Positions 26,453 to 45,436 of a DNA stretch of 64,000 nt are shown here, piece after piece. The DNA is taken from NCBI GenBank assembly GCA_017849585.1, contig JAFIGT010000043.1, positions 1-64,000 on the forward strand, given 5' to 3'. Source of the DNA: Verrucomicrobium sp. (GTDB lineage: Bacteria; Verrucomicrobiota; Verrucomicrobiia; Methylacidiphilales; UBA1321). Under the pieces are notes generated by a model. The model worked only from the letters and a program-made list of their open reading frames with translations. It made no database searches and had not been told where the DNA came from. Numbering within the stretch: the stretch's first letter is position 1; each line of letters opens with the position of its first letter. Made by a program: the position numbers and the translations under genes.

Positions 26453-26463
26453 AGTCTACGGGG
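26453..26463 (-). promoter_or_regulatory. Family A start-proximal motif (ThiF gene)
   Basis: CCCCGTAGACT on the minus strand ends 8 bases before the ATG at 26444. It is a one-base variant of the element-wide CCCCGTAGYCT motif; TAGACT would serve as the -10. Confidence 0.65.
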
Positions 26464-26586
26464 AATCACTTCCCCAGATTGAGGTGCCGCGTGGACAAAA
26501 GGGTTTCTATTCACCACAATGCGACAGCAATATCTTTACACTAATCCTTGCTGACGTTTTGCCCGAAAATGGTATAGTAATCTTAC

Positions 26587-26859
26587 ATGAAGAAGCCGCA
26601 TCAAGAATTTTGGGAACTTCATCCGGGATTGGTTTGGTCCAATCCGGACGCGCCCGATTCCGTTTTGATTCGCGCGGCTCTCTTGCGCCCTCGCTTCCAA
26701 ACTTTGCTCGATGTGGCGATGGAATTTAGCTTGGAACGATTGCAACAGGAATGGGAGCTGTTAAAAACCGACCCCGAGGTCAACACCCGGTCGGCCCAAC
26801 CAATCGTCGAACGTTGCTTGCGCAATATCGAACAGGGGTGGCATCATGCTGCCGCCTGA
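26587..26859 (+). CDS. Small partner of an AbiEii-like nucleotidyltransferase (possible antitoxin)
   Basis: The 90-residue protein has no motif I can name. It is helical and acidic in the middle (MEFSLERLQQEWELLKTDPEV). It overlaps the next gene by 14 bases, the layout of a two-gene toxin-antitoxin or toxin-chaperone unit. A promoter-like TATAGT lies 9 bases before the ATG. It sits on the strand opposite to the PRTRC genes around it. The antitoxin role is inferred only from position. Confidence 0.7.
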   Translation: MKKPHQEFWELHPGLVWSNPDAPDSVLIRAALLRPRFQTLLDVAMEFSLERLQQEWELLKTDPEVNTRSAQPIVERCLRNIEQGWHHAAA

Positions 26860-27568
26860 AACAGATAAAGCATGGAAAGCACTCAAAGAAGATACCTTGC
26901 TCAGTGGCGGTATCTTGGTAGGCGGAACTGCGTTAACCCTCCAGATTCAGCACCGGATTAGCGAGGATATCGATATTCTATTCCCGACGACAAAGTTGCC
27001 ACGTCAAAAGCTTCAATTGCTTTTGAATAAATTGAACACTGAAGGTTGGAAGGTCGAACCCAATGACAATCCGGCGGCTCTTGACGAATTTGGCAGCGCC
27101 GGAATGGAGTTGGCCGATTTTCAGCAAGATTTCCTGCTCAACGGCAAAACCAAGCTTTCCTTTTTCGTCTCCGACGAACACACCCAGCGATTGATCGAGT
27201 CTAAAGCAAATGTAAGTGGAGTTCGAATCGCTGGGCTTACTGAACTATTTGCTCTGAAAGCGGTGCTCACCTCGCAACGTTCCAAGAGCCGTGATTGGCT
27301 CGACCTTTACCTGTTGATGCGGCATCATGGTTTCACAATCCACGATTATGCGGCAGCCTACGCCAAAGCGGAAATGACGAGCGCATTGGAAACAGGGCTC
27401 ACTCGACTTTGCTCTGGAACACCGTCCTCTGCCGATGAAGGGTATTTCTCGCTATTAAAATCGCCTCCAAGTTTGGAAGAAATGGCGACTTACTTTCGTC
27501 AACAGCGAGACCTTTATGAGCAGCATCTTGCCGCTGTGGCGATTAAAAGCCGCTCGGAAGTAAAATAA
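26846..27568 (+). CDS. AbiEii/AbiGii-like nucleotidyltransferase
   Basis: The 240-residue protein has the AbiEii-type nucleotidyltransferase motif: GGTALTLQIQHRISEDIDIL near residues 26-45, with the Asp-x-Asp metal ligands. A later Lys/Asp-containing TELFALKAVLTSQRSKSRDWLDLYLLM segment is typical of the same family. AbiEii proteins transfer nucleotides to RNA and act as toxins or phage-abortive effectors. With the overlapping upstream gene it forms a probable toxin-antitoxin-like pair that splits the PRTRC cassette. Confidence 0.83.
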   Translation: MLPPETDKAWKALKEDTLLSGGILVGGTALTLQIQHRISEDIDILFPTTKLPRQKLQLLLNKLNTEGWKVEPNDNPAALDEFGSAGMELADFQQDFLLNGKTKLSFFVSDEHTQRLIESKANVSGVRIAGLTELFALKAVLTSQRSKSRDWLDLYLLMRHHGFTIHDYAAAYAKAEMTSALETGLTRLCSGTPSSADEGYFSLLKSPPSLEEMATYFRQQRDLYEQHLAAVAIKSRSEVK

Positions 27569-27638
27569 CAGGCGATTGTCGTTCCTTTTTTCCGCATCAC
27601 TTCGCCCTGCCAAACGGTAGGCACAAAAAACAGAACCC

Positions 27639-28349
27639 TCATTTTGCCATCAAAGCTTGTTCGAAAGTTCGGTTTGCCGGAACGAGTTGTTGCGCGGGAA
27701 AAACATCGGCGGTCGCCATTTTCTTGACCAAGTCCAGATAGGTTCCCTTGCGAACCAAGCTCCCCTCACCCGCATGGGTAAAGGCGGAATGGAAAAAGAA
27801 CCGCTCCCAAAACTCGCAAAGGTTTTTTTCTTTGCGGGAGGCCTCCTGCAAGGTGCCGGTACACATCTTTCCGTCATCATCCAGATTGTAAAAAGGGGCA
27901 TGGTATAATTTCGTGGACGCCACGGGGCGCGTATTTTCCTTCAACGCGAATATCCGCAGATCGTTTTGTCCCCGCTTGACGAGCACGAGGGCTGGACAGG
28001 CGAGCGGCACCCTGTCGAAGCGATTCATGGCCTCCTCCTGCGTTTGCCAGAAGAATGCCCGTTTACCGGCAGGCACCCACCATGCGAGCCGATCCTGATA
28101 AACGCCCACACAGCGTTCCGTCGGGTAAATGGGAGGAAGCGGTTCGGTAAACGATTCCAAGTGTTCCCGCAAAGCACGGAAATTCATCAATCGACCGGGC
28201 TTCAATCGCACCTGACCCGATGCCGTGTCGATGTCATGGGCGGTGGCTACGGCCTGTCGGGAGGAATCGCCCGATTGATAAAAGACCACGGCTTGGCGCG
28301 GACTCAGGTTAACTGCGTCCGGTGCCTCATATTTACCGAACAGATTCAT
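27639..28349 (-). CDS. PRTRC system protein B (prokaryotic E2-like)
   Basis: The 236-residue protein matches the PRTRC B family, grouped by sequence analysis with E2/UBC-fold proteins. The core is LYHAPFYNLDDDGKMCTGTL followed by a Trp-containing helix and FFFHSAFTHAGEG. The conserved His and the Cys of MCTG are the candidate thioester/catalytic residues. The N-terminal part contains a beta-rich PRTRC-specific domain. It overlaps PRTRC F by 4 bases. The biochemical role as a conjugating enzyme is a prediction, not shown experimentally to my knowledge. Confidence 0.85.
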   Translation of the reverse strand: MNLFGKYEAPDAVNLSPRQAVVFYQSGDSSRQAVATAHDIDTASGQVRLKPGRLMNFRALREHLESFTEPLPPIYPTERCVGVYQDRLAWWVPAGKRAFFWQTQEEAMNRFDRVPLACPALVLVKRGQNDLRIFALKENTRPVASTKLYHAPFYNLDDDGKMCTGTLQEASRKEKNLCEFWERFFFHSAFTHAGEGSLVRKGTYLDLVKKMATADVFPAQQLVPANRTFEQALMAK

Positions 28350-29377
28350 ATCCCCTCCACTTTCATGAGCAACGCTTCGCTCTGTCGGGCAAGCTGTAAA
28401 ATCCGTTTCGTCCGATCAAAAACGTAATACAACCACTCCTTATTTTTGGCGTCGAAATGGCAATACCACGACTCGTCGCACATCGCCCCTGAGTTATAGG
28501 CGTCCTCCATACTTTCACCGCAGATTTGGGCGATGTTGTCGTCCTGTTTCCATGAAAAGATCAGCGCGGGCAATGTGTCCTCCTCAGCATAGTCTATGGG
28601 GCATTCAACGGGAGGCGCGAATGGCTCCATCTCGTCTACTTGCTTCAGAATTAAGCCACAGTGTTCAATCAAAGAACGAAAACGAGAGGACGGATTCTTC
28701 TCCAATAAGGAACGCAAAAGCTCCTCAGGATCTTCCACCGACTCAAAAGCCCATCCGGGTACATCCTTGCCGAAAAACCCTTCCAACGTCGGCACATCCT
28801 CCTCATTGAAGGCGTTATCGTAGGCACGAAGTTCTTTTATAGCTTTCTCCCGCGTGTCCTGTCCGTCCCAATAACGATAATAGAAGTCGTTCCGCGCCGA
28901 CGCAGGGCCAAAACAACCAAGAGAACATCCAAATCCAGTCACGAGCGCCGATTTCACCAATCGTCCCAAACCCGGAACGCTTTCTTCCAACTTCATCAAA
29001 AAATCCCCGATAGGCCGCTGCTGCCATTCCAGAGAAAGAGACAACCGCCACAGTTCACGCTCGAAACGCAGTCCTACTTCAACTGGCAATCCATCTCCCT
29101 GTTCGGCCTCTGGTAATAACTCACATAACACACTCCGCACGGTTTCCTCAGACGATCCTTTCCAGTCACCTTCCGATAAAAGTCCAGCCTGCCCGAATCC
29201 CGACAAAAGCTCTTTTTCGCGAGCACGCTCGAACGGGGGACGCAGTTGCAGGGGTATGGCGTCCCCGGCTTCAATCGGCAGGGAAAGCCACGGCACGGCT
29301 ACAGGAGGGAGCTTAACAGGGCGGAGATGAGCGGGTCTCTTTCGGGTTCGCTGTCCGATGATTGTTGACTGATCCAT
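28346..29377 (-). CDS. PRTRC system protein F
   Basis: The 343-residue protein sits between C and B, as PRTRC F does in other cassettes. It has the family's regions: VPWLSLPIEAGDAIPLQLR near the start, a central GFGCSLGCFGPASARNDFYYRYWDG, and a C-terminal SWYCHFDAKNKEWLYYVFDRTKRILQLAR. Function is unknown for the family. It overlaps B by 4 bases and overlaps a small upstream ORF by 79 bases, so either F or that ORF may have a different start. Confidence 0.78.
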   Translation of the reverse strand: MDQSTIIGQRTRKRPAHLRPVKLPPVAVPWLSLPIEAGDAIPLQLRPPFERAREKELLSGFGQAGLLSEGDWKGSSEETVRSVLCELLPEAEQGDGLPVEVGLRFERELWRLSLSLEWQQRPIGDFLMKLEESVPGLGRLVKSALVTGFGCSLGCFGPASARNDFYYRYWDGQDTREKAIKELRAYDNAFNEEDVPTLEGFFGKDVPGWAFESVEDPEELLRSLLEKNPSSRFRSLIEHCGLILKQVDEMEPFAPPVECPIDYAEEDTLPALIFSWKQDDNIAQICGESMEDAYNSGAMCDESWYCHFDAKNKEWLYYVFDRTKRILQLARQSEALLMKVEGI

Positions 29378-29502
29378 AGAAGCTGCGCCGTCCCTTGAAA
29401 TTCCTTTGCATTCAATCGGGCTATTTCCTCTTCCAAGGGACTGGCGTTTTTGCGTTGATCTGCGTCGAAGCGTTCTAAAAGCTTCGTTGCATCATGTTCC
29501 AT
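29299..29502 (-). CDS. Small ORF between PRTRC C and F
   Basis: This 67-residue ORF begins 3 bases after the stop of PRTRC C and ends inside PRTRC F. The sequence is acidic and charged (LLERFDADQRKNASPLEEEIARL), with no recognised domain. Its tight spacing to C favours translation; the 79-base overlap with F is unusual. It may be a true small cassette component or chance. Confidence 0.45.
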   Translation of the reverse strand: MEHDATKLLERFDADQRKNASPLEEEIARLNAKEFQGTAQLLWISQQSSDSEPERDPLISALLSSLL

Positions 29503-29505
29503 TGT

Positions 29506-29721
29506 TTAGCCTTTCAGCCCCACCTTGGTAATGAAGCGGTAGGATATTTTGCCGTTCTTGATGTCCGGCCCTTCCACCAACGCATTGCCCAATTCGGGGT
29601 AAAACGTGGCGTAGTGCTCCCGTATTTGTTCCGGGGTCATGGAAGAAGAAATTTCCTGCAAGATCGTTCCGTTATAATGAAAAACCCGCTCTGCGGCCTT
29701 CACCGATAATTGACCTGCCAT
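29506..29721 (-). CDS. PRTRC system protein C (prokaryotic ubiquitin-like)
   Basis: This 71-residue protein matches the PRTRC C family, described as a prokaryotic ubiquitin-like beta-grasp protein. It begins LSVKAAERVFHYNG, with a central MTPEQIREHYATFYPELGNA and VEGPDIKNGKISYRFITKVG. It ends in Gly-Leu-Lys-Gly, so the last residue is a Gly, as needed for activation by an E1-like enzyme. With ThiF and B in the same cassette it forms the modifier, activator and conjugator set. Target and deconjugase are unknown here. Confidence 0.87.
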   Translation of the reverse strand: MAGQLSVKAAERVFHYNGTILQEISSSMTPEQIREHYATFYPELGNALVEGPDIKNGKISYRFITKVGLKG

Positions 29722-29742
29722 AGTGTAATCCTCTCGTAAAAG

Positions 29743-30255
29743 TTACGCTGCCATTCGAGTGTCTGCCTCTTCTTCCACATCCTCCGGCGGTGTGGATGAC
29801 ACCACAGCGACAGGAGGTTCCGGCAGCGAGGAAGTCCGGGAAAAGAGATCGGGTAGCGGAGCCTCTTCGGGTTTCTCGTTTGCCTTGGGAGTTTCCTTTT
29901 CAGTCGGCTTGCTTACCGCCGCCGGTTTCGCGGGAGTGGAAGTTTTTTGAGCTTCACGCTTCTTTTTCAGAGCTTCGTCCGCTTCCTTCTTCAGTTCGCC
30001 CAATGAGCTACGGAATTGTTTTTTAACCAGTTCCGCCTCCATCAGTGTTTCAACGAATGCTTTGTCCAATTCCTCTGGCGTTCCGGTCAATACCAATGGC
30101 TTGTCGAGGATGTCATGGCCTTCACCCGTATTGTTTTCCCCTTTCTCGTCCGTCTTGCGTAACAGCGCGAGGACGGACATTTCTCCAATCGCACTGGTGG
30201 TGATAGTGAGTGTCAGGCTTGCACCCAACGTCAGTAGTTTGAGTTCGGTAAACAT
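29743..30255 (-). CDS. PRTRC system protein E
   Basis: The 170-residue protein is the first gene of the cassette. It has the PRTRC E N-terminal pattern MFTELKLLTLGASLTLTIT then PLVLTGTPEELDKAFVETL. A Lys/Glu-rich helical stretch and a Pro/Thr/Glu-rich low-complexity tail (about 105-170) follow, probably disordered. The family's role is unknown. A CCCCGTAGTCT motif precedes the ATG by 6 bases. Confidence 0.83.
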   Translation of the reverse strand: MFTELKLLTLGASLTLTITTSAIGEMSVLALLRKTDEKGENNTGEGHDILDKPLVLTGTPEELDKAFVETLMEAELVKKQFRSSLGELKKEADEALKKKREAQKTSTPAKPAAVSKPTEKETPKANEKPEEAPLPDLFSRTSSLPEPPVAVVSSTPPEDVEEEADTRMAA

Positions 30256-30261
30256 ATAGTG

Positions 30262-30272
30262 AGACTACGGGG
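30262..30272 (-). promoter_or_regulatory. Family A start-proximal motif (PRTRC E)
   Basis: CCCCGTAGTCT on the minus strand, followed by six bases and then the ATG at 30255. This is the presumed promoter of the E-C-F-B transcription unit. Confidence 0.75.
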
Positions 30273-30276
30273 TTTC

Positions 30277-31056: not shown

Positions 31057-31062
31057 GCCGGG

Positions 31063-31073
31063 AGGCTACGGGG
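31063..31073 (-). promoter_or_regulatory. Family A start-proximal motif (methylase)
   Basis: CCCCGTAGCCT on the minus strand, six bases before the ATG at 31056. It is the mirror image of the motif at 31106-31116 for the divergent gene. Confidence 0.75.
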
Positions 31074-31105
31074 ATGCGGCTGAGAAGCCGGAAAGATGAA
31101 ATATG

Positions 31106-31116
31106 CCCCGTAGTCT
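31106..31116 (+). promoter_or_regulatory. Family A start-proximal motif (gene at 31123)
   Basis: CCCCGTAGTCT followed by six bases and the ATG at 31123. Confidence 0.75.
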
Positions 31117-31122
31117 GACAGC

Positions 31123-31755
31123 ATGCCCAAACATGCAACTCAATTACCTGGTCAACCATCTGCCACATTACTGGATTTCAATAACATCGTTCGCGCCAGC
31201 TATCTGCACCGATCCCGCGATCCAAAGCGTTCTCAAATCATTTACCGACTCGCTAAATGGGTGTCTTGGTTCGCATCCAAGGTCTTGCCTCAAGTCTATG
31301 GTTGCAAACCAATCTCCTATGTCGTTGTTCGAGATTCCATCAACCAATGGTGTGTCGTGTCCAAAACCACGAAAAATGTGACGCGAGTCATCCTCGCCGG
31401 GTATCTTTTCAAAAAGCAGGCCGAAAATGCGCGAGACGCGCTGTTTTTCGTGAATGCAATGGCGGTGAAAAATGGCTACAGCGTAAAATGGATGGCCGAC
31501 TTCGAATATGCACTTTCCGTCAAAAACTTCCTCAGCCGGTTTACCGTGGCTATCTGGAATGCCCAAACATTGCTGCCGAGTGGATCGCCTGAACTATGGT
31601 TTGCCCAAGCAGCCATCACATGTGACAGCACGGTTGCAGAGGCTTGCTCATGGGGTGTCATCCTTACCGAAGCACACAAACGCCGGCCCCGCGACTGGAT
31701 GCCGGAAATCACTTCCGGATCGAAAAACAAAAACTCAATGACCGCGCTGTTTTGA
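31123..31755 (+). CDS. Hypothetical protein, 210 residues
   Basis: I do not recognise a family. The sequence is mixed alpha/beta and basic (calculated by eye), without membrane segments. It has a Trp/Ala-rich helical part (YRLAKWVSWFASKVLP) and a beta stretch ISYVVVRDSINQWCVVSKTT. It starts exactly six bases after a family A motif, which supports the start and the gene's reality. It is divergent from the DNA methylase homologue. Confidence 0.75.
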   Translation: MPKHATQLPGQPSATLLDFNNIVRASYLHRSRDPKRSQIIYRLAKWVSWFASKVLPQVYGCKPISYVVVRDSINQWCVVSKTTKNVTRVILAGYLFKKQAENARDALFFVNAMAVKNGYSVKWMADFEYALSVKNFLSRFTVAIWNAQTLLPSGSPELWFAQAAITCDSTVAEACSWGVILTEAHKRRPRDWMPEITSGSKNKNSMTALF

Positions 31756-31770
31756 CCATGCTATAGAAGC

Positions 31771-31788
31771 ATGCCTTGAAATAGGCAT
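31771..31788. terminator. Short hairpin between convergent genes
   Basis: ATGCCT-tgaaat-AGGCAT follows the stop at 31755 and precedes the end of the minus-strand gene at 31809. An overlapping CATGC/GCATG pair (31757-31773) allows an alternative fold. The 13-mer GTTTTGACCATGC here recurs at 33801-33813, again beside a small hairpin at a gene end. Confidence 0.4.
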
Positions 31789-31808
31789 CACCTCTCCTCC
31801 AAAATCTG

Positions 31809-32120
31809 TTATTTGGTTTTGAGAGAACGGCGAGTTGATTTGGCGTGCGGACGCGGCGCAATCGCTGTTGATAGCTTCTGATCATCTTCGTGTCCTGCTT
31901 GCAGCATCGTATCGAAAGCGCCCATAACATCGGCCACACCACTCAACGGGATCAGGATCGTGTTGGTACGCCGGTGATCACCTGTTTCGGTGACCCGGAG
32001 ATATTCTCCGCGTGGATTCTCATATCGCCCGATCAGAAATATTTTTCGCTCCACTCGAACTACCGTTTCGGAGATGCATTTATCCATAGCTTCCTTGAAT
32101 GAGGTATTTGTCATCTTCAT
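31809..32120 (-). CDS. PUR-alpha-like single-stranded nucleic-acid-binding protein
   Basis: The 103-residue protein contains RKIFLIGRYENPRGEYLRVTE, then RRTNTILIPLSGVADVMGAFDTML. This is the beta-beta-beta-alpha pattern of bacterial PUR-domain proteins (K.F...L.EN.RG.FL.I.E; I.IP..G..DF). One PUR repeat is enough to dimerise. The C-terminal tail is basic (HAKSTRRSLKTK). On this element it could bind single-stranded DNA or RNA during transfer or act as a regulator. The assignment rests on pattern memory and should be checked by profile search. Confidence 0.55.
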   Translation of the reverse strand: MKMTNTSFKEAMDKCISETVVRVERKIFLIGRYENPRGEYLRVTETGDHRRTNTILIPLSGVADVMGAFDTMLQAGHEDDQKLSTAIAPRPHAKSTRRSLKTK

Positions 32121-32184
32121 TCAGCTTAAACCGTGCGGCAAGCTTGATCTTTATATGGGTAGCCCCCTCCCCGAACGCTCTCTC

Positions 32185-32703: not shown

Positions 32704-32751
32704 GCAGGATGTCTTACCACGCGGCCTGGTTTCCTGTCGATGGCGCTTCGC

Positions 32752-33246
32752 TCACTCCTCCCGGATGCGACGCACCTGTTTCATCGCCGCGTTGGCCTGA
32801 TAATCGGTCATGGCATCTTTCGGCTTGTGATGCTCGGGAAATGGACGTTGCTTACTTCCCTCGCCGCCAACGCCATCTACCACGCAACGCTGCTGAAAAC
32901 CAAATGGCCAACGGATTGCCGGATTCTGAAAACCGTAAAGCCAATACTGATTTGAAGTATCAACCAAGCGGCTTTCGGCAGGATAAAGCTGCACAAATTC
33001 GAACTCGACTCCAACGATCTCATTTTTGATCCACTGGAAATGCCGCCAATCCGTCACCGGCTCCTTGTCCAACCGTTTGATCGAAAGCTGCGTCAATGCC
33101 AGAATTCCATCCGGTTTCAGATAACGCACAGCGACTTCGTAAAGATTGTTTTGGTAGACTGCATCGGGCACCGCCATCCTCGCCCGTTTAAACGTAGCGA
33201 TCTGGTCTTGAGTGTACTCGGCCCGATAAAAAGGAGTCCACGTCAT
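32752..33246 (-). CDS. Uncharacterised mobile-element protein (DUF7694-like)
   Basis: The central part reads LTQLSIKRLDKEPVTDWRHFQWIKNEIVG then EFVQLYPAESRLVDTSNQYWLYGF. This is a strongly conserved pattern I associate with a family of uncharacterised phage and plasmid proteins. I chose the ATG at 33246, which overlaps the stop of the upstream gene and has GAGGAGG just ahead; the longer ORF lacks such a site. The C-terminal tail is Lys/Gln-rich. Function unknown. Confidence 0.65.
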   Translation of the reverse strand: MTWTPFYRAEYTQDQIATFKRARMAVPDAVYQNNLYEVAVRYLKPDGILALTQLSIKRLDKEPVTDWRHFQWIKNEIVGVEFEFVQLYPAESRLVDTSNQYWLYGFQNPAIRWPFGFQQRCVVDGVGGEGSKQRPFPEHHKPKDAMTDYQANAAMKQVRRIREE

Positions 33247-33755
33247 AGTTCCTCCTCGCCTTCCAATTCGACAGCTTTGTTCAGTGGACGGCATGGGTAC
33301 AACCCCAAAGGCATGTCCCCATCCCCAATTCCCCACGCTGTCGAAAGGATACGCGGCTCAAGCGCCTCGCCATCGATGCCAGCAATCAGGTGAGCCACAC
33401 ACCGGGACTGACCATCCTGACCTGTCTGGAGATAGTTAATATCGACCTCCCCATATTCGCCTCCGCCGGAAAGTCTCACCTGAATTTCGATGCGTTGTTC
33501 CGGTGTTCGTCCCTCGTATCTCGCCTCAACATCAAGCCCAACCTCTCCGCGTCGAAGCTGAGCAATTACTGTCTCTGCCGCCGCTCGCCTGATTTTCCAC
33601 GGCAAAGCTGCCGACAACTCAGCAACGGTGGTTCCATCCACCGGGTCGCTGGGGCCAAAGCGCACAATAAAAATAGACAGTGTTTCAGCTTCATCCTGAA
33701 GTTCGTAACGTGCCATGCCATCGCCTGTTTGAATTTCGTCAATCGTCGTAGTCAT
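33243..33755 (-). CDS. Hypothetical protein, 170 residues
   Basis: Acidic protein with no recognised domain. It contains EVDINYLQTGQDGQSRCVAHLIAGIDGEALEPR and a C-terminal acidic tail. It is coupled by a 4-base overlap to the next gene. A family A motif lies 19 bases upstream; between them is GGAG, so this gene has a short leader with a normal ribosome-binding site. Confidence 0.65.
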   Translation of the reverse strand: MTTTIDEIQTGDGMARYELQDEAETLSIFIVRFGPSDPVDGTTVAELSAALPWKIRRAAAETVIAQLRRGEVGLDVEARYEGRTPEQRIEIQVRLSGGGEYGEVDINYLQTGQDGQSRCVAHLIAGIDGEALEPRILSTAWGIGDGDMPLGLYPCRPLNKAVELEGEEEL

Positions 33756-33774: not shown

Positions 33775-33785
33775 AGACTACGGGG
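33775..33785 (-). promoter_or_regulatory. Family A motif (two-gene unit 33755 and 33246)
   Basis: CCCCGTAGTCT on the minus strand, 19 bases before the ATG at 33755, with GGAGAA between. Confidence 0.7.
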
Positions 33786-33822: not shown

Positions 33823-34104
33823 CTAGTAATCTTCCGGCATCAAGACCGTCGTAATAGAACGATCTGCCTCAGTGATGATCCAGAACTTTACACCTGACTG
33901 GCTGTGATAGACCGAAAATAGCCGGAATCCCTGTTCAAGAGACTTTTCATTCTCTTCCAAGTCATGTTTGTCCACATCGCCCCAATCCCCCGAATGATGT
34001 CGTCGCATGGCAACGAGCACCTCCTCCATTGACAGAATCGACTGAGCATTGGCAGTGATAACTGTTTGACCTAAGGAGAATTTCGGCTGCTTTGAAGTAG
34101 TCAT
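33823..34104 (-). CDS. Hypothetical protein, 93 residues
   Basis: The start is set at the ATG at 34104 (MTTSKQPKFSLGQTV) because a family A motif ends 7 bases before it; an upstream ATG in the same frame would read through the motif. The product has a KOW/SH3-like start (KFSLGQTVITANAQSIL) and an Asp/Glu-rich middle. No family recognised. Confidence 0.65.
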   Translation of the reverse strand: MTTSKQPKFSLGQTVITANAQSILSMEEVLVAMRRHHSGDWGDVDKHDLEENEKSLEQGFRLFSVYHSQSGVKFWIITEADRSITTVLMPEDY

Positions 34105-34111: not shown

Positions 34112-34122
34112 AGACTACGGGG
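34112..34122 (-). promoter_or_regulatory. Family A start-proximal motif (gene at 34104)
   Basis: CCCCGTAGTCT on the minus strand, seven bases before the ATG at 34104. Confidence 0.75.
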
Positions 34123-34501: not shown

Positions 34502-35122
34502 TCAGGCATAATGGCTCGACCAGACCGGCTGTCCCGCCCACTTGCATGATCCCCCATATTTGAACGAGATGCGTCCATTCTCATCCAAAGGCTTGGTAAC
34601 GGGGTCTCCACGAAACTCATTGCGACGGGGCTGAGTCCAACCGCACATGTTGCCGGTCTCCTTATAATCCTGTCGGATCGGTCGCACGACAATCACCCGG
34701 TCTTTCACTTCGACCACCTGATAATAATCAATGTTGGTTTGATCGTAGCCCCACGAATTATAGATGACATCCCCCACCGCCCAGTGGTCAGCGGCCCTCA
34801 GATTCGCACGCTTGGCTGACTTTTCCCGTTTTCTTTCCTCCCGTTGCCGGAGAATTTTTTCCGATCGCTGCCAGTAGTAATCAAAATTCTTCTGGAGGGT
34901 TTCCTGCGTGATGAAGGAGTAGTGATGGCTGGGCTTCGCTGCTTTCCCATTCCAAATCGCCATCGTAAACCGGGATACGCTCCCGTGACTGAAATGGCGC
35001 GTCACGCCCACAATGGGCAGAGTTTCATGCCGTTTAATTGTCCCCTCTTCCCCAGCGATAATACGAATGGCTTGTTCCTGAGTTCCCCACGTATCAGCAC
35101 GAATCATTTTGTATAGGCTCAA
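34502..35122 (-). CDS. Hypothetical protein, about 200 residues
   Basis: No family recognised. The middle is a charged helix (EKILRQREERKREKSAKRANLR). The C-terminal half is beta-like with IYNSWGYDQTNIDYYQVVEVKDRVIVVRPI. The TTG at 35122 has AGGA at a good distance; the ATG at 35107 is the alternative. A family A motif lies 42 bases upstream. Confidence 0.65.
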   Translation of the reverse strand: MSLYKMIRADTWGTQEQAIRIIAGEEGTIKRHETLPIVGVTRHFSHGSVSRFTMAIWNGKAAKPSHHYSFITQETLQKNFDYYWQRSEKILRQREERKREKSAKRANLRAADHWAVGDVIYNSWGYDQTNIDYYQVVEVKDRVIVVRPIRQDYKETGNMCGWTQPRRNEFRGDPVTKPLDENGRISFKYGGSCKWAGQPVWSSHYA

Positions 35123-35164: not shown

Positions 35165-35175
35165 AGGCTACGGGG
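35165..35175 (-). promoter_or_regulatory. Family A motif (gene at 35122)
   Basis: CCCCGTAGCCT on the minus strand with a leader of about 42 bases before the TTG start. Confidence 0.65.
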
Positions 35176-35222
35176 AGAAGTTCTGAAGAAAGTCACTGAC
35201 AGAAACTCACAGCTTTCGCCAA

Positions 35223-35229
35223 GTAGTCT
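35223..35229 (+). promoter_or_regulatory. Degenerate family A motif (gene at 35236)
   Basis: GTAGTCT, preceded by CCAA instead of CCCC, ends six bases before the ATG at 35236. The TAGTCT hexamer and the spacing match the family. Confidence 0.55.
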
Positions 35230-35235: not shown

Positions 35236-35571
35236 ATGCCTACAAATCCAATGTCTCCCGAAATCGGTGACAATGTTTTCACCTTCCTTATCACCCTTCA
35301 CGGTGATCCCTATGATCCCAGCGGCGAGTTCGACACCAATGGGCCACGAAAGATAAAAAAGATCGTCTGGTTGGCTTCAACATATCTCTGGTCGAAGGAA
35401 CAACGCAAAATCCGCAAGGCATTCCGAAACATCATCCTTCGAAGGCATGGAGGTGGCTTTCATTTCGACGAGGATCTCGAACCGCTTCTCCAAAAACATT
35501 TCGCCTATAGGGGATGGATGTTGGAGGAAGCCATCACCAAGCTCGGCTACGGCCAGCGAAAGAACCGGTGA
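35236..35571 (+). CDS. Hypothetical protein, 111 residues
   Basis: Basic small protein (KIKKIVWLASTYLWSKEQRKIRKAFRNIILRRHGG). It ends with a Gln/Arg/Lys tail. No domain recognised. The start is supported by the motif six bases upstream. Confidence 0.6.
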   Translation: MPTNPMSPEIGDNVFTFLITLHGDPYDPSGEFDTNGPRKIKKIVWLASTYLWSKEQRKIRKAFRNIILRRHGGGFHFDEDLEPLLQKHFAYRGWMLEEAITKLGYGQRKNR

Positions 35572-35604: not shown

Positions 35605-35615
35605 CCCCGTAGTCT
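35605..35615 (+). promoter_or_regulatory. Family A motif (35664-36679 unit)
   Basis: CCCCGTAGTCT, 48 bases before the ATG at 35664. A GAGGAG ribosome-binding site stands just ahead of that ATG, so this unit has a normal leader. Confidence 0.7.
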
Positions 35616-35663: not shown

Positions 35664-35939
35664 ATGGCACGCATGATTAACACTATCACGAGTAACTTTA
35701 ACCAGGACGGTTGCCGATACGAATATCCCCTAGACTTTGAATCGGTGGAAGAGATCAAGCGTCAGGAACCCATGTTAGTGGTGGGAACTGTCGCATTATT
35801 GTCCTGCTGCGTGTCATACCTTGACGGAAAGCCTCTCCACTTCTGCGTTCGTCGCGCTGCGGGTGAGATTTTCTGCAAACTGATGACCAAGGAAGAGTTT
35901 CTGGACACCTTCTCTAGAGGGGATGGGAGTGCGGCATGA
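35664..35939 (+). CDS. Hypothetical protein upstream of the DpdA-like gene
   Basis: The 91-residue product has no recognised domain. It contains VVGTVALLSCCVSYLDGKPLHFCVRRAAGEI, with three Cys. It overlaps the DpdA-like gene by 4 bases, so it is likely cotranscribed and may assist it. Confidence 0.65.
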   Translation: MARMINTITSNFNQDGCRYEYPLDFESVEEIKRQEPMLVVGTVALLSCCVSYLDGKPLHFCVRRAAGEIFCKLMTKEEFLDTFSRGDGSAA

Positions 35940-36679
35940 GCGAGTTGTTTTTCTTCGTCGGACTCCATCAACTTGCCGACGCGAGACACTTCAACCGATC
36001 CTTTATTTCAGTAAATCGGTTACGCCGCCGCAAATCAGATTTTCTGGTAAACGAGTGGATAATGGATAGCGGCGCATTTACCGAAATCAGTACTCACGGT
36101 CATTATCGCGCATCAGAGATGGAATATGCGGCGCAGATTGATCGTTGGAGTCGCGTCGGGAATTTTCAGGCTGCCGCCATTCAGGACTATATGTGTGAAC
36201 CGTGGATTATCCAGAAAACTGGCTTGACGGTACGCGATCACCAGCGATTGACGATTGAACGATATGACAGGTTGCGCGCAATAACTGGAGCACGTTTGTT
36301 GCCGGTAATCCAAGGATATTTGCCGCACGAGTATGTTGAACACATCGAGCAATATGGTGGCCGGTTGAAGCATGGTGAATGGGTCGGGGTAGGAAGTGTG
36401 TGTCGCCGTAACCGGCACCCCTCACAGATCGAAGACATTCTAGTGGCTATCAAAAAGAAGCGGCCTGATCTTCGATTGCACGGGTTTGGCCTGAAAATCA
36501 CCGCTCTTTATAGCGGCACGGTGCGCTGTCTTTTGCATTCCTCTGATTCGATGGCTTGGTGCCGGTCGGCCAGTTATGCCGGACGAAACGGCAACGATTG
36601 GAGGGAGGCCAAGGCATTCGAAAAAAAGATAGATTCCCTCTCGATATCGGAGGCTCTTTGTCAGGGGCAGCTCTTTTAA
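35936..36679 (+). CDS. TGT-fold transglycosylase, DpdA-like (7-deazapurine modification)
   Basis: The 247-residue protein has the ordered motifs of tRNA-guanine transglycosylases in a compact form: IMDSGAFTE (Asp44, catalytic base position), LLPVIQGYLPHEYVEHIEQYG, WVGVGSVCRRNRHPSQIEDIL, LRLHGFGLK and SSDSMAWC (Asp204, the probable nucleophile). No Zn-binding C terminus of true Tgt is present. Proteins of this kind on phages and islands (DpdA families) exchange guanine in DNA for a 7-deazaguanine to evade restriction. No preQ0 synthesis genes are in the window, so the base would come from the host pathway. Substrate (DNA or tRNA) is inferred. Confidence 0.72.
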   Translation: MSELFFFVGLHQLADARHFNRSFISVNRLRRRKSDFLVNEWIMDSGAFTEISTHGHYRASEMEYAAQIDRWSRVGNFQAAAIQDYMCEPWIIQKTGLTVRDHQRLTIERYDRLRAITGARLLPVIQGYLPHEYVEHIEQYGGRLKHGEWVGVGSVCRRNRHPSQIEDILVAIKKKRPDLRLHGFGLKITALYSGTVRCLLHSSDSMAWCRSASYAGRNGNDWREAKAFEKKIDSLSISEALCQGQLF

Positions 36680-36881: not shown

Positions 36882-36892
36882 CCCCGTAGCCT
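36882..36892 (+). promoter_or_regulatory. Family A start-proximal motif (WGR-ligase)
   Basis: CCCCGTAGCCT followed by seven bases and the ATG at 36900. Confidence 0.75.
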
Positions 36893-36899: not shown

Positions 36900-38006
36900 A
36901 TGAATACATTATCATTGCGGCCACACGCCGCTCCACAAACGGTCCACCTACACTATCGGGAGGGGAATTCAGACAAGGTTTACCAAGTCCAACTTGAACC
37001 GAAGGACGATGGTTTTGTCGTCCTCGTGGCTTACGGGCGGCGCGGGTCAGCCCTGCAAACCGGAACCAAGACCAGTTCCCCAGTCGCATACGAGGAAGCC
37101 CTCGCCATCTTTAATCGCCTTGTGCGGGAAAAGAAGACGAAGGGCTATACCGAAAGCGAATCGGGGACGCCCTATCAGGGAACGGATAAGGCCAATGAAG
37201 ATACCGGCATCCGGCCTCAATTACTTAACCCGATTGACGAAGAACAACTCTCCTCCTGCCTGAACGATCCGGCGTACTGCCTTCAAGAAAAGTTCGATGG
37301 CAAGCGAGTGCTTCTTTGGAAAACCGGCTCCATCGTGGCCGGGATTAATCGCAAAGGGTTGCGCGTGGGATTGCCCCAGTCGATTGTGGCCGACATTCTC
37401 CGCCTGTCTCAGGACTTGCTGCTCGATGGGGAACTCGTGGGAGAGCGGTTCTACGGATTCGATCTGATTCATCTGGATGGGGACGACTTACGCAGCCAGC
37501 CCTATCAACATCGACTCGAATGCGTACAGGTCATTCTCAGGTCGTTAAAATCGGAACGGATGCCTGTCATCCAAACGGCATTCACCTCTGCGGACAAACA
37601 AATGCTGGTGGACGAAGTCAAACTGCGCCGGGGCGAAGGAGTGGTTTGCAAACGATGGGCAGCCCCCTATCAGCCGGGTCGCCCTAATAGCGGCGGGGAT
37701 CAGTTCAAGTTCAAATTCACGGCCACCTGCTCCGCGATTGTCGGGGCCATCAACCGGCAACGAAGCGTTTCCCTTCAGTTATGGGATGGAGATAAATTGG
37801 TCGGTGCCGGGAATGTGACCGTACCCGCCAATCAACCGATTCCCAAGGTGGCCAGCATCGTGGAAATTCGTTATCTGTACGCTTTCCGGGAGAGCGGCGC
37901 ATTGTATCAGCCCGTTTATTTACACCAACGTGACGACATCGACGAACTGGCCTGCACTACCGCCCAGTTACGCTACAAGCCCAGCGATACGGATGACGAT
38001 CAATAA
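36900..38006 (+). CDS. WGR-domain ATP-dependent DNA ligase
   Basis: Residues about 10-85 form a WGR-like DNA-binding domain (LHYREGNSDKVYQVQLEP, VAYGRRGSALQTGTK). The rest is a minimal ATP-dependent ligase. EKFDGKR contains the adenylated Lys131 (motif I), followed by FYGFDLIHLDG (III), GEGVVCKR (IV), QFKFKFT (V) and an OB-fold end. It would seal nicks in DNA, for example after transfer or repair. The start is the ATG at 36900, seven bases after a family A motif; a longer ORF reads through the motif. The fusion of WGR with ligase on a mobile element is uncommon. Confidence 0.85.
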   Translation: MNTLSLRPHAAPQTVHLHYREGNSDKVYQVQLEPKDDGFVVLVAYGRRGSALQTGTKTSSPVAYEEALAIFNRLVREKKTKGYTESESGTPYQGTDKANEDTGIRPQLLNPIDEEQLSSCLNDPAYCLQEKFDGKRVLLWKTGSIVAGINRKGLRVGLPQSIVADILRLSQDLLLDGELVGERFYGFDLIHLDGDDLRSQPYQHRLECVQVILRSLKSERMPVIQTAFTSADKQMLVDEVKLRRGEGVVCKRWAAPYQPGRPNSGGDQFKFKFTATCSAIVGAINRQRSVSLQLWDGDKLVGAGNVTVPANQPIPKVASIVEIRYLYAFRESGALYQPVYLHQRDDIDELACTTAQLRYKPSDTDDDQ

Positions 38007-38094: not shown

Positions 38095-38433
38095 ATGAAA
38101 GATACAAGGACAGATCAGTTACGTGTCCGGCTGCGCCGGGAAGAACGGCAACAACTCGAACAACACGTTCAAAACCGTGGCAAGAATGAAACGATCTCTG
38201 ATGTCATTCGGGAAGCCCTTAACTGGTGCATTAACCCCGATCAAAGCCTGCATCCCGTTTATGTCTCCAAGGAAACGGCAGCAATAGTAGCCGCTCTCGC
38301 GGACGAACTCAAACGCGACCCCGGTGAGGTTGTCAAAGACTGCGTGAATGGCATTCTCGCGCTTGTCGAAAAGAGAAAGCCACTCATCGTTCAAGAAATC
38401 CGGCTTCGTCGGAAGTATCAGGCCCAAAAGTAA
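38095..38433 (+). CDS. Putative ribbon-helix-helix DNA-binding protein
   Basis: The 112-residue protein begins with QLRVRLRREERQQLEQHVQN, then ETISDVIREALNWCI, the strand-helix-helix pattern of MetJ/Arc/CopG regulators. A second helical domain follows (ETAAIVAALADELKRDPGEVVKDCVNGIL), and a basic tail. AAAAAGGAC stands ahead of the ATG. It may regulate the element's promoters. Confidence 0.68.
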   Translation: MKDTRTDQLRVRLRREERQQLEQHVQNRGKNETISDVIREALNWCINPDQSLHPVYVSKETAAIVAALADELKRDPGEVVKDCVNGILALVEKRKPLIVQEIRLRRKYQAQK

Positions 38434-38945: not shown

Positions 38946-38956
38946 CCCCGTAGCCT
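38946..38956 (+). promoter_or_regulatory. Family A start-proximal motif (gene at 38963)
   Basis: CCCCGTAGCCT followed by six bases and the ATG at 38963. Confidence 0.75.
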
Positions 38957-38962: not shown

Positions 38963-39418
38963 ATGAACCCAACACCTGCTTCTAAAATCCTCATTCTTCG
39001 TGCTAATTGTCCAAACGAGTTCTCCGGCGTTTCCTATATCACGGTAGAATTTGACGCCAATTTTCCTGCCCGCCTGCGCGAACTTCAAACTCAAGTGCAT
39101 CGGCTCTTCAAACTTTTCCCCTCAGCCTATTATGGCTCCCTTGAAATAGATGCCTCTGCTTTGGGGATGCACTTGCAGGCCTACCAGTGCACTACCGGAC
39201 TGGAAGAAATTCTATCCGCCGCCGGAAGGGACTGGGGCGTTGCAGATGTCATACCGGCAGATAGCGAAGAGTGGCTGACTTCCTGTCACTACCTGAGCGT
39301 AGGCAAAGGGGGCGACTTGTGGGTCAAGCTATTGGCTAAACATTCCAGCGATGTCGCCGAAGCCGAAATTGACTCCGACGTAATTGCGGCTGTTCTCAAT
39401 CAATCAGCCCGTGCCTGA
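38963..39418 (+). CDS. Hypothetical protein, 151 residues
   Basis: No domain recognised. The N-terminal half is beta-like (ISYRF-type strands such as VSYITVEFDANFPARLRELQ), followed by a helical acidic part. The start is supported by the motif six bases upstream. The stop is followed directly by an A-run and a hairpin that is a terminator for the opposite strand. Confidence 0.65.
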   Translation: MNPTPASKILILRANCPNEFSGVSYITVEFDANFPARLRELQTQVHRLFKLFPSAYYGSLEIDASALGMHLQAYQCTTGLEEILSAAGRDWGVADVIPADSEEWLTSCHYLSVGKGGDLWVKLLAKHSSDVAEAEIDSDVIAAVLNQSARA

Positions 39419-39449: not shown

Positions 39450-39800
39450 TCACACCTGGCTGCAATAGCGCGCGCGTTAGTTGCCCACAGCCGTTCCGAT
39501 CCTACGTTGCGGGTGACTCACCAGCAAGGCTGAAACTCTCCGGAGTTATACTGATACCGCTCCGGGCTGAACCGGTTCCCGCGTTCACCAGGATACCGAA
39601 TGGGAGATCGTGGAACGACATTCCGCGGCCGGCCAGAAGCCTGGAGAATCCCGATCGTTCCAGGCTGAAGCAATCACGAAAGGACGCTGGACGGGGAGTC
39701 CGCCGATCCCATTCGCCGCCGAATCTTCGCTCTTTTTGAAGAGCGGCGGCGAATGGGATCGGCGGTTCAAGTAGCGGAAGGTATAGGATGTGGCGCTACC
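39425..39800 (-). ncRNA. Candidate structured non-coding RNA
   Basis: This GC-rich stretch has no convincing ORF but many inverted repeats, and it ends at the leftward terminator. The main feature is a 21-bp perfect stem (39700-39720 with 39745-39765) capped by a second helix. The strand is chosen because the terminator T-run lies on the minus strand. The 5' end is not defined. I do not recognise a known RNA family; RNase P, tmRNA and 6S landmarks were not seen. An origin of transfer or replication is an alternative. Confidence 0.4.
39700..39765. repeat. 21-bp perfect inverted repeat with capped hairpin
   Basis: The arms 39700-39720 and 39745-39765 are exact reverse complements (beginning CCGCCGATCCC). 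A further 7-bp helix (39728-39734 with 39739-39745) closes the loop, leaving a 7-base bulge. Perfect arms of this length are under selection or recent. Confidence 0.8.
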
Positions 39801-41914: not shown

Positions 41915-41926
41915 AATAAGGTTCTT

Positions 41927-42289
41927 TTAGGGTTTGAAGGTGAGAGGTTTATTCTCGTCGTAAGTAAAAATCTTCGGTGTCTCAAAAGGAGCCTTGGATC
42001 GTTTGAGCTTTTCAATGGCATCGCTTTGGGAAATAGGCCGAACTGGCAAAGGAGTCCGGGAACGCGAAAGGGCAGGCTCAATCATGGTGTAGACAGCCCG
42101 GGGCGGTTTTGAACGCACCTTCACAAAATTATGGATACCGGACGGAGCGGCACTAATACCGTGCTGCTTCAGCAAGATTCGGGAAATCTCTACGAAGCTT
42201 ATGTTTTGTTTTCGCAGGGCAACGATGACTCCGGCTACTGGAACAAGTTTGCTCTGAAACGGTTTTCCGCGTTGTGATGTGAGGGACAT
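41927..42289 (-). CDS. Small helix-turn-helix protein of the mobilisation region
   Basis: The 120-residue basic protein contains VIVALRKQNISFVEISRILLKQHGISAAPSGIHNFVKVRSK, with a helix-turn-helix-like spacing of the sort found in small mobilisation and TraK-type proteins. The C-terminal half is Pro/Lys-rich. A GTTAATAA motif lies 31 bases upstream with a GGAG between, so it leads the unit with the ParA-like gene. Confidence 0.6.
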   Translation of the reverse strand: MSLTSQRGKPFQSKLVPVAGVIVALRKQNISFVEISRILLKQHGISAAPSGIHNFVKVRSKPPRAVYTMIEPALSRSRTPLPVRPISQSDAIEKLKRSKAPFETPKIFTYDENKPLTFKP

Positions 42290-42320
42290 GGTTTGAGTGA
42301 AGCTTTTCGCCTCACTCTCC

Positions 42321-42328
42321 TTATTAAC
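42321..42328 (-). promoter_or_regulatory. Family B motif (mobilisation unit)
   Basis: GTTAATAA on the minus strand, preceded by TGT, 31 bases before the ATG at 42289. AAGGAGAG follows it directly. Confidence 0.55.
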
Positions 42329-42367
42329 ACATCGCTTTTTACGAAACCTAGATGACAGACAGGGTGC

Positions 42368-42868
42368 TTATTGACTCAGTAGAAATTCCACGGCCTTGAG
42401 AATCCCGGCTAGAATTCCTGGGCCAACCAAGGCGGTAAAGAACAGGCCGGGAACCCATCGAGGAATTCTGAACCAGGAAGAAATAGAGTATCGGACCATT
42501 TCCCGAATAATCCATAATCCGAACAGTTGGACCAGGAACAGGATGATAGCGATCAGGCAATCCAGCCGGACATACTCGGTATAGCGACAGTAAAATGGCC
42601 AAATGACAACATTCAGGCACAGCTTCCCAAGCTCATAGGTTGCCAGGGCCAGAAAATAATACCACGCCGCAATCCACGAATACGGAGCCGCCATTTCCTG
42701 ATAATGCGACAACGCCGCGAATCCCCATGCGATCCCCTTGCAGGCGGCGGCTAAAATCAGAACAAAGATACAGCCCTCGCCCAAACCTTCATTGTAATCC
42801 GATGGGGAAGACTTCGCCGGTGGATCAATCAGATTGTCCAGAGGCTTAAAATTGAAAAAATTACCCAT
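42368..42868 (-). CDS. Membrane protein of the transfer region
   Basis: About 166 residues with three or four hydrophobic segments (FVLILAAACKGIAWGFAAL, WYYFLALATYEL, LIAIILFLVQLFGLWII, VPGLFFTALVGPGILAGIL). The start MGNFFNFKPLDNL at 42868 is chosen because a family A motif ends ten bases upstream; the longer ORF reads through it. Comparable small membrane proteins (TraP-like) occur in I-type transfer regions. Confidence 0.6.
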   Translation of the reverse strand: MGNFFNFKPLDNLIDPPAKSSPSDYNEGLGEGCIFVLILAAACKGIAWGFAALSHYQEMAAPYSWIAAWYYFLALATYELGKLCLNVVIWPFYCRYTEYVRLDCLIAIILFLVQLFGLWIIREMVRYSISSWFRIPRWVPGLFFTALVGPGILAGILKAVEFLLSQ

Positions 42869-42878
42869 AGTATGGCCT

Positions 42879-42889
42879 AGACTACGGGG
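42879..42889 (-). promoter_or_regulatory. Family A motif (gene at 42868)
   Basis: CCCCGTAGTCT on the minus strand, ten bases before the ATG at 42868. It is one of two family A sites inside the transfer region. Confidence 0.65.
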
Positions 42890-42955
42890 GATCATTTATT
42901 AGCTTGGAGGAGCGGGGACCGACGACAATAAGGTGACGCTGGCTACCTTTACCCA

Positions 42956-44008
42956 TCAACCATAGATGAAGGAATCAACTTGAAAGAGTGTCTCATAATC
43001 TTGCCCGGTCCGTTTGGCAAAGCGGTCTGACAACTCATGGATTCGGTTCTCCATAATCAGGCTTCCCCACCGGGAAAGGTCGTTGCCGCCACGTCCATAC
43101 CCATCTTTCCTCTTCCGGAATACGGCGGCTTGATAGGCGAGCGTCACCGGAGCCAATCCCAGCCTCTGGTTTGCAGTGGGGTTGGGAATTAATTTCTGGG
43201 CTAAAATAAGTTTCAAGCACCGCGCCAGTTGTCGGGTGGCGTCACGCCGGTCGGCTTCCGGGTATTCGTTTAGCAACCGGGACACAGTGCTGGCCACATC
43301 TTCCGCATGCACGGTCGCAAAGACCAGCATGTTCAGGTTTGCCGCCTTGAGCGCGGCCCGAAGCGTCTCGATATGGTTGATCTCTCCGAAAGCCATGACA
43401 TTAACATCCTGCATGAGAGCCAACGCCACTCCCGTGTGATAGTCTTCAATATCGGTTCCCACAACCTGCTGGGTTACCAACGAGCGGTTGCTGGCCAACG
43501 CGTACTCGATCGGATCTTCGAACGTCCGAATATGAAGCGCATTGCTCTGGTTCAGATAATCCAAAGTCGATGCCTGGCTGGTACTTTTCCCCGCACAGGG
43601 GCCGCCCGAATAAAGAACAAGACCCGGAGACGTATCGCAGAGATAATCCATTAAAGCTGGCTCATATCCAAGATCCTTGAGCCGCGGTACGATAGCCGGG
43701 ATAAACCGGAAGGTAATCACCCGTTTACCATTGCTTCGATAGCCAATTGCTCGAATGCGGTAAACTCCATAGGTAAACCCGGATTTCATATTCACCTTGG
43801 ACAGCCCTTCAAAAAGCGACTGATAAAGCAGGTCAAATCCTTCCGTCGCTTCCTTTGCCAAATTCCGGTTCCCCATTTCCCGAAAAGTTCGCACCAGCCG
43901 ATATACCGGTTCCCATCCTTCCACCAAGTGCAAGTCTGTCGCCCCAATCTTGCCGCCCTCCTCCAATAGTCGTGGAAAAAGAGTATCGGATAGATCCGTT
44001 TTGTTCAT
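42956..44008 (-). CDS. DotB/TraJ-like secretion ATPase
   Basis: The 350-residue protein is a hexameric PilT/VirB11-superfamily ATPase of the kind that powers type IVB (Dot/Icm, I-type) systems. Walker A is SGGPCAGKST, followed by TFEDPIEYAL (Asp box), AFGEINHIETLRAALKAANL (Walker B) and VFATVHAEDV (His box). Both the Walker A loop and the GEINHIET box differ slightly from the usual GPTGSGKST and GEIRD. The gene is divergent from the VirB6-like gene, with mirrored family B motifs between them. Confidence 0.87.
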   Translation of the reverse strand: MNKTDLSDTLFPRLLEEGGKIGATDLHLVEGWEPVYRLVRTFREMGNRNLAKEATEGFDLLYQSLFEGLSKVNMKSGFTYGVYRIRAIGYRSNGKRVITFRFIPAIVPRLKDLGYEPALMDYLCDTSPGLVLYSGGPCAGKSTSQASTLDYLNQSNALHIRTFEDPIEYALASNRSLVTQQVVGTDIEDYHTGVALALMQDVNVMAFGEINHIETLRAALKAANLNMLVFATVHAEDVASTVSRLLNEYPEADRRDATRQLARCLKLILAQKLIPNPTANQRLGLAPVTLAYQAAVFRKRKDGYGRGGNDLSRWGSLIMENRIHELSDRFAKRTGQDYETLFQVDSFIYG

Positions 44009-44023
44009 AAAAGAAGCTGATTC

Positions 44024-44031
44024 CTATTAAC
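44024..44031 (-). promoter_or_regulatory. Family B motif (DotB-like ATPase)
   Basis: GTTAATAG on the minus strand, preceded by GTGT, 15 bases before the ATG at 44008. It mirrors the copy at 44061-44068. Confidence 0.6.
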
Positions 44032-44060
44032 ACACCGTCCCGGGGTCTTTGGGTGTGCGT

Positions 44061-44068
44061 GTTAATAG
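44061..44068 (+). promoter_or_regulatory. Family B start-proximal motif (gene at 44076)
   Basis: GTTAATAG, preceded by GCGT, followed by seven bases (AAGGGTC) and the ATG at 44076. Confidence 0.65.
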
Positions 44069-44075
44069 AAGGGTC

Positions 44076-45413
44076 ATGACCTGTTTCATGCCTCTTCTCT
44101 TTGCCTCCAGCGGTTCGGGCATCGCCTCCGCCAGTGACCAAATCGTTTCGGGGATTACTCAAGGAAGCGAGGTGCTGCGCCAAACTTCTCTGCAAGTCGT
44201 CAATTCCCTGCTGCCTTTTTGCGTGAACCTCCGAGTAATCATCGGTGGATTTTCGGTAATGTTCGGACGCTCTTCCCTTGCCGAGGAATTAGCAACCATA
44301 ACCCTGCGCGCCCTTCTGGTGTCGGCTCTCGTGTTCTCATCGCTGTATTCTGAGATCATCGGTTCAGCCGCAACCAAGATGGCCAATGCCGGAAGGCAAT
44401 TAAGCCCTCAAATTATGAATGCCATGGGTGCCCCGGGATCTTCCGCGGAACCGATCGATTACTGGTGCGATTGGATCAATGGAAAAGATAACGGCGGCAA
44501 ACCAAGGTTCGGATACGACTACATTTCCACTAAGATCATCAATGCGAAATCCATGGTTCAGGAAGCCCAGCAAGCCCTTTCCAGGGTTGGAAGCAGTAAA
44601 GACCAGACAACTGCCGCTACCGATCGCGTTCAAACCGATAGCTCTGTCTCTGGTACGATGGTCAAGGTGCTCGGATTTCTCTTTGGAGGAGCCATGATCG
44701 CGGTGGCTATCGCCTTCGCCTGGCTCACTGCTGGCCTGACCGGGGCGATGGCTGCCATCGGGTGCATCGTCTTGGCTGCTTTCTCTTTTTTGGGCGGCTA
44801 CATAGGCACTCAGATGCTCTACTATCTGATCTATGCCCTAGGCATCGCCGTGATGCCGCTGTGCGTATTCGACCGGTTCAAGGATTTGTGGCTCCATTGG
44901 ATTTTCTATCTGATCGGCACACTGCTGGCCGTTTTCTTGTTCTACGTTTTCAATGCATTTGGCTTTGGACTGATTTCGCTCATCACAACCCATATCTTTG
45001 AGAGTGGATTGCTTTCCACGATTCTTGGTCAGGCTGCTTCCAGTGTCCTGACCTCGATGTTCCCGGTTATTTCGGAGGCATTCCAAAAATTGGGCCTGGG
45101 AAATGGCCAGGACATTCTCTTGGCGATGTTTCCCGTCGCCATTTGGCTGGGTGGGATTGCCATCGTATCGGCATTGGTGGCGGGAGGATTAACATTGGGT
45201 GGCGTTGGGATTGCTGTCGGGCTTTCATGGCAACGGGCCTTCACCCATGAGGGAGTATTGGAAACGATCACCCGTCTCTTCCAAGGACTTCAGGGAGGAG
45301 TTTCCACCATGATGGGAGCATTGGCCAACAGGACGGTTCAGGCGGGGGCCGAAATGGGACGCGGGGCGTTCTCTCTGTTCCGCGGCGCAGGAAAGTTGTT
45401 TTTGAAAAAATAA
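44076..45413 (+). CDS. VirB6/TrbL-like polytopic inner-membrane protein
   Basis: About 446 residues: a signal-like N terminus (MTCFMPLLFASSGSGIASAS), a hydrophobic pair around 40-95, a soluble loop, then six or so long helices between about 200 and 400 (MIAVAIAFAWLTAGLTGAMAAIGCIVLAAFSF and following). It ends with a basic tail. This is the plan of VirB6/TrbL inner-membrane channel proteins. The start is the ATG at 44076, seven bases after the motif; an earlier in-frame start runs through it. Confidence 0.75.
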   Translation: MTCFMPLLFASSGSGIASASDQIVSGITQGSEVLRQTSLQVVNSLLPFCVNLRVIIGGFSVMFGRSSLAEELATITLRALLVSALVFSSLYSEIIGSAATKMANAGRQLSPQIMNAMGAPGSSAEPIDYWCDWINGKDNGGKPRFGYDYISTKIINAKSMVQEAQQALSRVGSSKDQTTAATDRVQTDSSVSGTMVKVLGFLFGGAMIAVAIAFAWLTAGLTGAMAAIGCIVLAAFSFLGGYIGTQMLYYLIYALGIAVMPLCVFDRFKDLWLHWIFYLIGTLLAVFLFYVFNAFGFGLISLITTHIFESGLLSTILGQAASSVLTSMFPVISEAFQKLGLGNGQDILLAMFPVAIWLGGIAIVSALVAGGLTLGGVGIAVGLSWQRAFTHEGVLETITRLFQGLQGGVSTMMGALANRTVQAGAEMGRGAFSLFRGAGKLFLKK

Positions 45414-45425
45414 ATGCCTACCATT

Positions 45426-45436
45426 CCCCGTAATCT
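45426..45436 (+). promoter_or_regulatory. Family A start-proximal motif (lipoprotein gene)
   Basis: CCCCGTAATCT, a one-base variant, followed by six bases and the ATG at 45443. It is the second family A site inside the transfer region. Confidence 0.7.

Follow-up and report, generated by a model that had tools for sequence, protein, structure and literature searches.

What reads a short DNA word that recurs immediately before the start codons of a set of otherwise unrelated bacterial genes? The question is raised by a stretch of 64,000 nucleotides (the window) from Verrucomicrobium sp. (assembly GCA_017849585.1, contig JAFIGT010000043.1, here C24), in which the initial annotation described 13 copies of the element CCCCGTAGYCT between positions 26453 and 45436, nine of them 6-8 nt from an ATG. 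The annotation took the last six bases for a -10 hexamer (TANNNT) at the distance found in leaderless mRNAs, suggested that a dedicated regulator or sigma factor may read the almost invariant CCCCG, and knew of no earlier description of such an element. The observation itself was confirmed: every one of the reported copies is present, with a single correction of position. The interpretation was supported only in part, since the -10 and leaderless reading is well supported whereas a dedicated reader is supported but not proven.

A repeated intergenic motif confined to one island

Ten copies are exact CCCCGTAGYCT, against a mean of 0.03 and a maximum of 1 in 100 dinucleotide shuffles of the window. 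On the minus strand, the copy at 26453-26463 (CCCCGTAGACT, one mismatch) ends 8 nt before the ATG of the PRTRC ThiF gene (25584-26444), the copy at 30262-30272 ends 6 nt before the ATG of PRTRC protein E and fits inside a 21-nt intergenic gap, and the copy at 31063-31073 ends 6 nt before the ATG of a DNA methyltransferase-like gene. The latter forms a divergent pair with a plus-strand copy at 31106-31116, 6 nt before the ATG of an unknown gene (31123-31755). Two other minus-strand copies precede unknown genes, at 33775-33785 (19 nt before the ATG of 33243-33755) and at 34112-34122 (7 nt before the ATG of 33823-34104). A second divergent pair is made of a minus-strand copy at 35165-35175, upstream of an unknown gene (34502-35122) whose start is unclear (42 nt to a TTG or 57 nt to an ATG), and of a degenerate plus-strand copy with two mismatches (CCAAGTAGTCT), 6 nt before the ATG of 35236-35571. 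This degenerate copy lies at 35219-35229, 4 bases to the left of the position 35223 initially given. Further plus-strand copies are found at 35605-35615, with a 48-nt gap containing GAGGAG 7 nt before the ATG, ahead of 35664-35939 and a DpdA-like gene (35936-36679), at 36882-36892, 7 nt before the ATG of a WGR/ATP-dependent ligase (36900-38006), and at 38946-38956, 6 nt before the ATG of an unknown gene (38963-39418). Finally, a minus-strand copy at 42879-42889 lies 10 nt before the ATG of a predicted membrane protein (42368-42868), and a plus-strand copy at 45426-45436 (CCCCGTAATCT, one mismatch) lies in a 29-nt gap, 6 nt before the ATG of a small lipoprotein-like gene (45443-45766).

A similar frequency of the motif inside genes or across the host genome had been named beforehand as a finding that would overturn the observation, and both were looked at. 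All 13 sites are fully intergenic and point into a gene, although only 14.5% of the 11-mers in the stretch are intergenic (binomial p = 1.3e-11). In the whole 4.79-Mb genome, the pattern CCCCGTARHCT has 16 matches, 12 of which lie in 26453-45436. Of the four others, three do not precede an ATG, while the fourth, an exact copy on the minus strand of another contig (C3:62025-62035), is a genuine 14th site that stands 35 nt before the ATG of a recT gene with GAAGGG in the leader. In 1.25 Mb of host sequence, only two one-mismatch copies precede an ATG at 5-9 nt. The observation was thus not refuted on either count.

Conservation is confined to the 11 positions, information falling from nearly 2 bits inside the block to background immediately outside it, with no column above 0.7 bit in the 60 nt before or the 30 nt after. 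The block is uninterrupted and shows neither a dyad nor a second half-site. A first alternative, that these are recombination or cassette boundary sites (attC-like) that happen to lie at the 5' ends of genes, would fit single-gene units with copies in both orientations. However, the motif always points into the gene, mostly at a fixed distance, it has no inverted core, and no integron integrase was seen among the proteins scanned, so that this reading is considered most improbable.

The motif was not found in the other elements examined. A scan of 289 genomes of the phylum for the motif followed by an ATG gave only scattered hits outside this genome, at most 3 per genome (in genome G134, on separate contigs). 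A scan of 84,980 species genomes for a divergent motif pair gave one hit, a perfect and terminator-like hairpin in a Megamonas MAG that was taken as chance, and the viral collection gave none. In the same way, the PRTRC loci of two relatives (genomes G499 and G369), an ATPase relative (contig C3 of genome G299) and loci bearing homologues of the sigma protein described below (G299 C9, G356 C9, G297 and G290) showed no word comparable with the positive control in the window, which reached 10^-14.6. An A-rich word in G369 reached 10^-9 and looks like an A-rich leader. The motif is therefore not a general PRTRC feature, although two PRTRC loci are not an exhaustive test.

Geometry of a probable core promoter

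Among 848 host chromosomal ATG starts, TANNNT shows one sharp peak with its end exactly 6 nt before the ATG (31 genes against roughly 10 at neighbouring positions), which indicates that this host lineage probably has leaderless promoters. Of these 31 promoters, 17 carry a TTG -35 at a 16-18 nt spacer from the -10, against 57 of 817 other host starts (p = 1.6e-11), so the peak is a genuine sigma-A-type promoter class with -35 and -10. TAGYCT in the element sits at the same place, and nine of the 14 sites end 6-8 nt before the start codon. On the contrary, none of the 14 element sites has the TTG (0/14 against 17/31, p = 0.00025), and positions 3 and 5 of the element's -10 are fixed (G in 12/13, C in 13/13) where host leaderless -10s vary. 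The simplest reading is a core promoter of different specificity, apparently of a type that the host does not use, with an extended -10, no -35 and leaderless output where the start codon follows at 6-8 nt; mRNA 5' ends were not mapped here.

Two other explanations were weighed against these data. Ordinary host leaderless promoters that are alike because the genes were duplicated or captured together would agree with the host peak, but no similarity extends beyond the 11 bp, the downstream genes are unrelated, the host -35 is missing and the exact motif occurs at no host start found, which makes this origin very unlikely. An mRNA element that recruits ribosomes by pairing or binding is equally hard to sustain. 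The 6-8 nt gap is also usual for Shine-Dalgarno sites, yet four sites lie 19 to about 50 nt upstream (33775, 35165, 35605 and C3:62025), two of them, 35605 and C3:62025, having an ordinary leader with a clear Shine-Dalgarno sequence of its own, which argues against a translational role. In addition, the TA...T framework coincides with the host -10 peak.

A conjugative island with a divergent sigma-70 protein

The window carries a conjugative island. A PRTRC cassette (ParB-related, ThiF-related) is present, with ThiF, B and E models above cut-off and F just below it (50.8 bits against 58.4), together with a TraG/TrwB-like coupling protein, a TrbI-like protein and a tyrosine integrase (58291-59562, minus strand) at the right end of the insertion. 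At 59642-59666 (plus strand) lies a 3' fragment of tRNA-Asp (attR-like), the intact gene being on contig C3 with its end at about 49533. In a congener (genome G300), the C3 left flank up to this tRNA is 92-96% identical and is followed within about 4.3 kb by DNA matching C24:71302 onward at about 91%. C3 rightward of 49.5 kb and C24 leftward of 59.7 kb therefore hold, as judged by synteny, the two ends of one insertion. The contigs do not meet and the middle of the insertion is not assembled, so its full size and intactness were not obtained, and neither excision nor transfer was assayed. Window 20876-24950 and C3 98-108 kb have no orthologous match in two congeners, which would fit a large insertion, but both congener genomes are incomplete and the data did not separate one large island from one broken by rearrangement. 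Searches of genome or viral contigs for the ParA-like, methyltransferase, ThiF and sigma proteins gave no relatives, and neither did searches of plasmids and phages for the sigma.

On the C3 side, between a secretion ATPase and an AAA protein, lies a 327-aa protein (C3:53358-54341, minus strand) with Pfam Sigma70_r2 at 26.0 bits (cut-off 24) and no region-4 hit; a Sigma70_r4_2 search of the genome did not list this gene either. Divergent matches were found in 16 other genomes of the class sample. A profile built from an alignment of ten members matches solved sigma factor structures (WhiG, SigA, FliA and RpoS, best E = 5e-24), most of the best matches ending near region 4.1. Nine of the ten members hit Sigma70_r2, three hit region 3 and none a region-4 model. 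The structure predicted from the single sequence was uninformative, whereas the alignment-based model is fairly confident for residues 1-195 but poor for the C-terminus, and its top Foldseek hits, though weak, are mainly sigma factors. In G299 C9 and G356 C9, the homologue lies beside homologues of this insertion's transfer genes, in G356 from both contigs, which links the sigma to this type of conjugation module. Nevertheless, some members (G297 and the near-identical G290) sit among housekeeping genes, so the family is not strictly a mobile-element trait.

It is proposed that CCCCGTAGYCT is the core promoter of a regulon private to this mobile island, which combines a PRTRC cassette with conjugative type IV secretion genes and is inserted at tRNA-Asp, and that TAGYCT is the -10 element while CCCCG directly upstream acts as an extended -10 that replaces the missing -35. 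In this view, transcription would start about 6-7 nt downstream, nine of the 14 known sites giving leaderless or nearly leaderless mRNAs and the rest giving leaders, and the most likely reader would be host RNA polymerase carrying the divergent sigma-70 protein, which keeps region 2 and lacks a recognisable -35-binding region 4.2. The motif, its placement, its confinement to the island, the host leaderless geometry, the missing -35 and the presence of the sigma gene on the same insertion come directly from the sequence analysis, while the start sites and the reading of this motif by this sigma are deduced. The main argument, that a sigma without a recognisable -35-binding domain and a promoter set without a -35 on the same insertion fit each other, is circumstantial. 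No binding data were at hand, the sigma gene lies on another contig, and no motif stands before the sigma operon itself. Moreover, the motif is seen in one element only, including when elements with sigma homologues about 23-29% identical are considered, which left no second case in which co-variation of sigma and motif could be followed. The explanation as a whole is given a probability of about 0.55, the promoter reading alone being put at about 0.85 and the sigma as its reader at about 0.5-0.6.

The main alternative is that host sigma-A reads TAGYCT as a weak -10 and that an island-encoded DNA-binding protein binds the CCCCG block to activate or repress all these promoters at once. The -10 position and spacing equal those of host leaderless promoters, and the island encodes small DNA-binding-like proteins, among which one (38095-38433, plus strand) reads as two ribbon-helix-helix units with a weak NikA-like Pfam hit. 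It may be inferred that a single-chain double ribbon-helix-helix protein could read an asymmetric site. The fixed positions of the -10 and the single uninterrupted block speak against this alternative, which remains possible although unlikely.

Relation to described promoter systems

The closest working parallel is the late system of phage T4, in which TATAAATA at -13 to -6 is read by the sigma factor gp55 with gp33 and the gp45 clamp, and in which a diverged gp55 in phage Aeh1 goes with a diverged motif (PMC1524935). Both systems associate a sigma-70-family protein of a mobile element with a short, highly conserved -10-only motif shared by many of the element's genes, and the C3 protein, like gp55, is element-encoded without a detected -35-binding region 4. 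However, the present motif is G+C-rich in its upstream half, the element is a conjugative island, and the protein has an extra N-terminal helical part and region 3-4.1 remnants. Membership in the gp55 system is not claimed, as no gp55-specific comparison was made, and no clamp-type co-activator was identified nor anything like gp33 seen among the proteins scanned.

The leaderless geometry is that described for Deinococcus-Thermus and other bacteria, where TANNNT lies 6-7 bp before the ORF (PMC12340547; PMC3160421). Those are general host promoters with variable middle bases, while here an 11-bp block with fixed CCCCG and TAGYCT is confined to one island and lacks the host's TTG -35, and membership in this group is not claimed either. 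Group 3 sigma factors such as FliA and WhiG also use an extended -10, and the family profile matches WhiG best (6pfv). FliA promoters have GCCGATAA, in which the GCCG upstream of the -10 is read by sigma region 3. FliA and WhiG promoters also have a -35 read by region 4.2, and neither a shared -35 nor a recognisable region 4.2 is present here.

A more far-reaching possibility, held tentatively and at slightly less than even odds, is that the island runs a whole regulon of its establishment and accessory genes (PRTRC, RecT, ligase, methyltransferase and small unknown proteins) from -35-less, mostly leaderless promoters with a G+C-rich extended -10, read by its own sigma factor that has lost -35 recognition. 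This would be a phage-late-gene style of transcription takeover in a conjugative element, the sigma belonging to a family that recurs beside related transfer genes. If the pairing holds, it would represent a conjugative element with a private sigma factor and a private promoter code, an arrangement known mainly from phages and of which no such case was retrieved in the literature, although only narrow searches were made. It predicts which island genes switch on together and gives a minimal natural sigma in which -10-only recognition can be studied. The motif also fixes several start codons (34104, 36900 and 42868), as the initial annotation had proposed.

Inverted repeat and genes of the island

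A perfect 22-nt inverted repeat with a 22-nt loop was found at 39700-39765, in a kilobase of the island that is otherwise almost gene-free, and it is a candidate oriT or terminator. At 35936-36679, the island encodes a DpdA-like protein (7-deazapurine insertion in DNA) that belongs to a two-gene unit lying behind a copy of the motif, and a methyltransferase-like gene is carried by the same island. In addition, a small protein encoded at 31809-32120 gave a weak PurA-like (ssDNA/RNA-binding) match just under the Pfam cut-off, and a relative was observed in contig C3 of another genome, G290.

Contig C3 part of the insertion

In the part of the insertion located on contig C3 of the host assembly, a 777-aa protein is followed by an 801-aa protein with a VWA domain at 62660-67395, function unknown. 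On the minus strand of the same contig, at about 83844, CCCCGTAGTGG was found six nt before an ATG and may represent a further, weaker site.

Probable leaderless promoters of the host chromosome

Promoters with a TTG -35 and TANNNT exactly 6 nt before ATG were also observed on the host chromosome, in contigs C20, C41, C23, C10, C34, C25, C30 and C32, that is, at probable leaderless genes in this lineage.
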